A DNA stretch of 64,000 nt from Providencia zhijiangensis. GTDB taxonomy: Bacteria; Pseudomonadota; Gammaproteobacteria; Enterobacterales; Enterobacteriaceae. A program made the position numbers and the translations under genes. Below the pieces are notes generated by a model, which saw only the letters and a list, made by a program, of their open reading frames with translations, was not told the DNA's origin and did not search any database. This document shows positions 51,354 through 52,054 of the stretch, piece by piece (positions within the stretch are counted from its first letter, which is position 1; the number at the start of each line of letters is the position of its first letter). The DNA is taken from assembly GCF_030315915.2 (NCBI RefSeq), contig NZ_CP135990.1, forward strand, positions 3,472,001 through 3,536,000, read 5' to 3'.

Positions 51354-52054
51354 AAAAAAACCGGCCTTATATCCTAATCTATCAATTGTCAAACTGATGT
51401 GAATAAAATAAAAAAGTGCTTACCCGACAATAGGTAAAGGATTTGCAAGTTGTGCTAAGCACATTTTGAAGAAATAGTTTTTTACTTTAATTTCAATGAA
51501 TTAAAATTAAAATTAATAATATTCATTTTGTGATAATCAAAAATTAACCAATAACTAACCTGTGGATAACTCTGTGCAGCAAAGTATTTCTATCTAGGAT
51601 AAAATGAACCTAGACCCACTCAGGTTGTGGATAACTTTCTCATGGAGAGAAGTAATAAAAAAACGCTGAATTTTAGTTAACTAACTAAAGTAAAGTTATC
51701 AAAAAGTCAGGTTAATAAGAAATTTTAACTGAACCGGTAAAAATAGGATTTTTTACCTTTCACTCGAACGTTCGCCATTTTGGCTGAAGTTCTTATAGGA
51801 TGCCCTATTGCTAAGGGGTGGCTATTCTATGGCTCTCCGCCTATGAATGCAAGCAAAAAACTCACTTGGATCCTAAAAAGATCATAAATAATAAAAGGAT
51901 CGTGAACAAGGAAGATAAAAATTGCTTTTGTGTAAATAATGAACATTAAACGGCTAATAAGTATTAATGCGTAAGCATAGAACTAGCATTTAATAGAATG
52001 TTTATTAAGGGGTCATACAGAAAGAAAAATAGAGAAAATTGAGAGGTAAAAATT
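51354..52054. other. datA: Candidate datA locus: DnaA-box cluster between queG and tRNA-Gly array
   Basis: A 701-base AT-rich stretch without a convincing gene. Three DnaA boxes match TTWTNCACA, all in one orientation: TGTGAATAA 51398-51406, TGTGGATAA 51561-51569 and TGTGGATAA 51626-51634. A fourth, TGTGTAAAT 51929-51937, has one mismatch. A near-IHF site (one mismatch) is at 51536-51548. Other structure: palindrome TGTGCTAAGCACA 51451-51463 and CGAACGTTCG 51765-51774. In E. coli datA sits between queG and glyVXY. Identity is by position and boxes; no binding data. Confidence 0.65.

Follow-up and report, generated by a model that had tools for sequence, protein, structure and literature searches.

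A predicted datA locus with a putative promoter of its own between queG and the tRNA-Gly genes of Providencia zhijiangensis

Results

We analyzed the gap between queG and a tRNA-Gly array in a 64,000-nt stretch of the Providencia zhijiangensis genome (NZ_CP135990.1, positions 3,472,001 to 3,536,000; hereafter, the window, in which all positions are numbered from 1 unless another contig or locus is named). The gap occupies positions 51354-52054, with a group of DnaA boxes and a predicted IHF-binding site in its queG-proximal part and a predicted promoter, denoted P-datA, between these elements and the tRNA genes (Table 1). On the far side of the tRNA-Gly genes, towards orn, two small overlapping ORFs on the minus strand (52584-53298) resemble, by reading, a PIN-domain toxin-antitoxin pair. 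The genome encodes DnaA (625 bits), both IHF subunits (IhfA, TIGR00987, 171 bits; IhfB, TIGR00988, 174 bits) and Hda. We located oriC at C1:52337-52585 by its similarity to E. coli oriC (75% over 250 bp), which places it about 325 kb from the gap, or 8.6% of contig C1 (3,796,440 bp) if C1 is circular.

Table 1. Annotated and predicted features of the queG to tRNA-Gly region, in window coordinates
Feature	Coordinates	Strand	Evidence and remarks
queG, epoxyqueuosine reductase	50196-51353	+	ORF; TIGR00276, 483.9 bits; convergent, flanks the predicted datA
DnaA box 3	51398-51406	-	TTATTCACA; TTWTNCACA scan, aligned with E. coli box 3
IHF-binding site (IBS), predicted	51491-51503	+	TTTCAATGAATTA; one mismatch, at the E. 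coli position
DnaA box 2	51561-51569	-	TTATCCACA; invariant
DnaA box 7, weak	51573-51581	-	TGCTGCACA; two mismatches, 12 bp from box 2; block conservation 0.87
DnaA box 1	51626-51634	-	TTATCCACA; distance to box 2 is 65 bp in the whole genus
Small hairpin at P-datA transcript start, predicted	51803-51817	-	CCCT...AGGG; modest
P-datA, predicted promoter	51816-51852	-	-35 TTGCAT (51852-51847); 17-bp spacer; -10 TAGAAT (51829-51824)
GC-rich discriminator of P-datA	51816-51823	-	Stable-RNA promoter appearance
GATC 3 of triad above P-datA	51869-51872		Conserved in 22/22
GATC 2 of triad	51880-51883		Conserved in 22/22
GATC 1 of triad	51898-51901		Conserved in 20/22
Three tRNA-Gly(GCC) genes, glyVXY counterpart	52055-52362	-	Last gene 420 bp from box 1
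tRNA-Gly operon promoter-like site	52430-52457	-	TTGCTA-16-TATAAT

An earlier note on this DNA had proposed a datA-like locus here, based on three TTWTNCACA boxes in one orientation (51398, 51561 and 51626), two of them perfect, on a one-mismatch IHF site between the first two, and on a position between queG and tRNA-Gly genes as in E. coli. Each of these observations was confirmed: the three boxes all lie on the minus strand, those at 51561 and 51626 share the claimed sequence, the IHF site falls at 51491-51503, and the neighbors are as described, with queG supported by its TIGR00276 match. The note had also placed a fourth box at 51929, where the one-mismatch sequence ATTTACACA indeed occurs, but we rejected it as a conserved DnaA box because the block in which it sits is conserved less than any other part of the gap (0.23-0.26) and it has no counterpart in E. 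coli. Two features had been overlooked, namely, box 7 (51573-51581) and the conserved promoter (51852-51816).

The whole window contains 8 matches to TTWTNCACA compared with 8.6 expected, an ordinary count, so that it is the clustering of the boxes rather than their total number that stands out. Among 1000 dinucleotide shuffles of the window, 2 gave a same-strand triple within 245 bp and none a triple of the stricter pattern TTATNCACA; among 500 shuffles of the gap itself, none had three perfect same-strand boxes. We dismissed a second one-mismatch IHF match, at offset 22 from box 2, as lying off the orthologous position. Separately, the sequence from the IHF site to box 3 contains a block (51415-51454, ACTTGCAAATCCTTTACCTATTGTC...TTTTTTATTTT) that matches none of the boxes and is conserved in the genus to the same degree as they are (0.87-0.89); in the window, this block could form a hairpin followed by a T run.

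To compare this arrangement with that of E. coli, we scanned the queG-glyVXY gap of strain MG1655 identically (NC_000913.3, about 4392677-4392927). Read from the tRNA genes towards queG, E. coli datA comprises box 1 (ATATCCACA), box 7 (TTGTAAACA, with two mismatches, 12 bp before box 2 as in the window), box 2 (TTATCCACA) and box 3 (TTATTCACA), likewise between tRNA-Gly genes and a convergent queG. Boxes 2 and 3, both perfect and on the minus strand in the window, are identical in sequence in the two species and 163 bp apart in the window versus 162 in E. coli; box 1 and box 2 are separated by 65 versus 67 bp, box 2 and the IHF site by 66 versus 65 bp, and the IHF site and box 3 by 85 bp in both. 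The geometry of the two loci thus agrees to within 2 bp, and the caveat in the earlier note that the boxes are widely spaced was mistaken, because these spacings are the signature of datA. The sequence requirements published for E. coli datA, that is, boxes 2, 3 and 7 in one orientation together with one IHF site at set spacing (PMC5742627, PMC4585315), are all present in the window. The E. coli locus is also oriC-proximal, at about 467 kb or 10% of the chromosome. The differences are few. Box 1 is a perfect consensus in the window and carries one mismatch in E. coli; box 4 of E. coli datA, which is stimulatory yet dispensable, is absent; and the distance from the tRNA-Gly genes to box 1 is 420 bp in the window compared with 18 bp in E. 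coli, the longer gap containing, unlike in E. coli, a separate conserved promoter and a GATC triad. In order, strand, spacing and gene context, the stretch at 51354-52054 matches E. coli datA, and we consider it near certain that it is a datA ortholog on a Morganellaceae chromosome.

The initial search covered 23 other genomes of the genus, and every one of them has the same arrangement beside queG, with box 1 and box 2 always 65 bp apart and box 2 and box 3 161-165 bp apart. Across the GTDB family, the two-box spacing was present in 20 of 23 sampled genomes, and the 3 genomes where this search found none are all reduced (1.0-1.2 Mb). A three-box pattern scan of species genomes yielded at least 120 loci, and among the matches listed, all those adjoining queG belong to Enterobacterales, the queG-linked genera including Photorhabdus, Xenorhabdus, Proteus, Morganella, Yersinia, Pantoea, Klebsiella, Enterobacter, Citrobacter and Escherichia. 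In 100 queG-linked loci, which share descent and are partly redundant so that the counts express conservation and not independent trials, box 1 and box 2 are 64-68 bp apart and box 2 and box 3 159-165 bp; box 7 with at most two mismatches is present in 93, and an IHF consensus with at most one mismatch lies at offset 64-68 in 76, compared with 1.5% at other inter-box positions. In a cross-genus alignment, the box 7/box 2 block (ACAGAxTTATCCACA) is invariant and box 3 nearly so. In two further families (L025, L026), the boxes are kept beside queG and the IHF match is weaker or displaced. Many genera of Enterobacterales thus preserve the exact geometry of datA, and the small reduced genomes that were sampled have lost it. 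In two genomes, datA is intact next to a seemingly damaged queG, with in-frame stops in one case (L022, G011) and an apparent split into two pieces in the other (L023, G009), either of which could be an assembly error.

Spacing alone was not accepted as evidence of datA, because other sites also match. Three matches near dnaA (L207, L036, L047) were rejected as oriC regions, and a two-box site from another family (L205:1399-3502, G035) was not counted because it lies in an rppH-mutH-like gap; the rppH-mutH gap is the place of DARS2 in E. coli. Three genomes of another family of the order (L204, L206 and L208, from G129, G144 and G171) contain two boxes of the TTATCCACA type separated by 171 bp, together with an IHF consensus at offset 65. 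Neither queG nor tRNA-Gly was detected near these sites, one of which (L204) adjoins TRAP-transporter genes, and they are possibly displaced or independent datA-like sites.

The additional spacer between the tRNA-Gly genes and datA in the window is mostly unconserved, save for the block containing P-datA. On the minus strand, this predicted promoter reads CTTGCATTC-N13-CATAGAATAGCCACCCC, with a spacer of constant length and variable sequence. When 17 non-redundant species are compared, conservation across the entire gap peaks in the 20-bp block at 51834-51815 (0.93); the corresponding values are 0.87 for the box 7/box 2 block, 0.88 for box 3 and 0.25-0.5 for the unconserved parts. In the genus, P-datA lies 184-187 bp from box 1, or 187-189 bp when measured from the end of the -10 element (189 in the window). 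Of the 24 genomes of the genus, 21 contain a single copy of the exact pattern, which was found neither elsewhere among the 40 genomes searched nor outside the genus; all genomes of the genus pass a looser version of the motif. The sequence elements for control by SeqA and Dam are in place, with three close GATC sites above P-datA, kept in position in 20, 22 and 22 of 22 genomes, and both SeqA (161 bits) and Dam (322 bits) encoded. A promoter belonging to datA itself is a well-supported feature of the sequence, with a putative role considered below, and we found no earlier description of one in the open-licence papers searched.

The distance between the tRNA-Gly genes and datA differs among genera. 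From the tRNA-Gly end to box 1, it is 15-26 bp in most Enterobacterales loci examined and up to about 160 in Pantoea; it is 400-550 bp in nearly all members of the genus (about 1.36 kb in one), and about 415 bp in Morganella, while Photorhabdus and Xenorhabdus generally have 2-5 kb. By reading the flanks in relatives, the only means by which this wider promoter family was recognized, we found a promoter facing datA of the form TTGCxx-17-(TAGAAT, TAAAAT or CATAAT), with a GC-rich discriminator, in Proteus, a Proteus-like genus (L188), Morganella, Xenorhabdus and Photorhabdus. A GATC triad is found in the Proteus-type loci as well, with spacings of 19 and 11 compared with 18 and 11 in the window; its distance from the -35 element differs by about one helical turn. 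We then defined a strict motif (TTG, 20 nt, YANAAT, then 8 nt of which 5 or more are G or C), which occurs at 0.016 per strand-kilobase in the window and 0.020 in 8-kb loci, so that about 0.007 matches are expected in 330 bp. Every examined locus of the same five genera has the strict motif upstream of datA, and no examined locus with a close tRNA-Gly has it. The motif is also present in Biostraticola tofi, a locus unseen when the idea was formed, where tRNA-Gly is 365 bp away, behind an apparent intrinsic terminator identified by reading. One further genome (G370, L179), without tRNA-Gly in the stretch examined, has a near-match by eye with an 18-bp spacer. The sole clear exception is G343 (L180, L203), where datA lacks a facing stable-RNA-type promoter and tRNA-Gly is about 4.5 kb distant; in L203, what reads as the start of an antitoxin-like gene lies upstream of datA. 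A distant tRNA-Gly is thus accompanied by such a promoter in nearly every genome, with one exception and one near-match. Because the motif was defined after the Morganellaceae loci had been seen and these genera share ancestry, the independent support for this association comes from Biostraticola and perhaps G370.

Discussion

In E. coli, datA stimulates DnaA-ATP hydrolysis in an IHF-dependent manner, and its deletion leads to untimely initiation. By this parallel, the locus described here would bind DnaA and IHF, titrate DnaA and promote hydrolysis of DnaA-ATP, and would thereby hold back re-initiation. GC-rich discriminators mark growth-rate-controlled stable-RNA promoters, the class to which P-datA appears to belong. 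In E. coli, transcripts reading through from the glyVXY promoter oppose the binding of IHF to datA ahead of initiation, and datA-IHF timing additionally needs a factor described as unidentified (PMC10950094). Since the tRNA-Gly genes in the window end 420 rather than 18 bp from box 1, with a separate promoter in the gap instead of a tRNA gene directly upstream of box 1, this control may take a different form here. Moving the tRNA genes away would have weakened or removed the source of read-through, and transcription into datA would be regained through a separate promoter of the same class, with the link to growth rate retained. P-datA would then be active, with transcription running into datA and over the IHF site, which would set the timing of IHF binding and of the switching off of DnaA. 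We suggest tentatively, and with somewhat less than even confidence, that P-datA is a dedicated promoter acting on datA in place of tRNA read-through. In the genus and in Proteus-type loci, SeqA, bound at the GATC triad together with Dam methylation, could moreover silence this promoter briefly after the fork passes datA, allowing IHF to bind right after initiation; in E. coli, IHF binds datA in the period after the fork has passed it. This full version, with gating by SeqA, we regard as unlikely on present evidence.

The main competing explanation for P-datA is that it drives an independent small RNA or peptide unrelated to datA, a serious contender to which we give a little over a third of our belief. 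A promoter by itself does not reveal its purpose, and a modest hairpin is found at the predicted RNA start in several genera. Conversely, conservation falls towards background about 25 nt past the start, no RNA in the gap other than tRNA scored above the Rfam gathering threshold, no intrinsic terminator between P-datA and datA is consistent across species, and no small ORF in the spacer is conserved, as judged by eye from the alignment. (Sub-threshold Rfam matches to YrlA and HPnc0260 overlap tRNA genes and were taken as chance.) The nearly fixed distance from P-datA to box 1 within the genus and the association of this promoter type with distant tRNA-Gly genes also argue against an unrelated transcript. 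Because of the early loss of conservation and the lack of a consistent terminator or an Rfam match, we favor transcription through datA over a discrete RNA. It is improbable, in our estimate, that P-datA survives through inertia from a tRNA-Gly unit that has since been lost: its TTGCxx element and GC-rich discriminator do resemble those of tRNA operon promoters, including the site at 52457-52430, but it is the top-conserved block of the gap where the flanks have diverged, and the GATC triad is kept in register.

Two other alternatives concern the boxes themselves. A passive DnaA sink, which titrates DnaA after IHF-dependent hydrolysis has been lost, would be compatible with three perfect boxes, which would bind DnaA, and with an IHF site that has one mismatch in the window and two or three in some members of the genus; titration alone, however, needs no fixed spacing, and the position of the IHF site and the box spacing are fixed across the genus and the order, which makes such a sink very unlikely. 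It is hardly credible that the boxes act as promoter or terminator elements through which DnaA regulates queG or the tRNA genes and play no part in the DnaA cycle: the boxes do sit in an intergenic gap, and DnaA on box 2 of E. coli datA attenuates tRNA read-through (PMC10950094), but they are not the promoter of queG, which is convergent and ends in the gap, and the array is intact beside queG with the tRNA genes kilobases off in Photorhabdus and most Xenorhabdus examined.

A functional datA thus remains our reading of the boxes, and a promoter transcribing into datA our preferred, more tentative reading of P-datA. The link between datA and the tRNA-Gly operon may have been broken in Morganellaceae and, in a separate event, in Biostraticola, each time with datA carrying a stable-RNA-type promoter of its own. 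If transcription through datA matters, lineages in which the tRNA coupling was lost would be expected to retain some other source of such transcription, as nearly all of those examined do. The separate promoter would accordingly offer evolutionary evidence on what times IHF binding to datA, and P-datA, if indeed bound and gated by SeqA, would be a candidate for the additional factor in datA-IHF timing. To our knowledge, datA has been studied almost solely in E. coli, and these loci make a test of the read-through model feasible in several genera.

Among known systems, DARS2, a DnaA-reactivating site, is likewise a cluster of DnaA boxes with IHF sites but differs from datA in neighbors and function, and oriC, which combines DnaA boxes and IHF as datA does, is located separately in this genome. 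The closest parallel to the proposed control is glyVXY read-through, with a stable-RNA-type promoter predicted to transcribe across the IHF site of datA as in E. coli; the source differs, being the tRNA promoter in E. coli and, as predicted here, a separate promoter below the tRNA genes.
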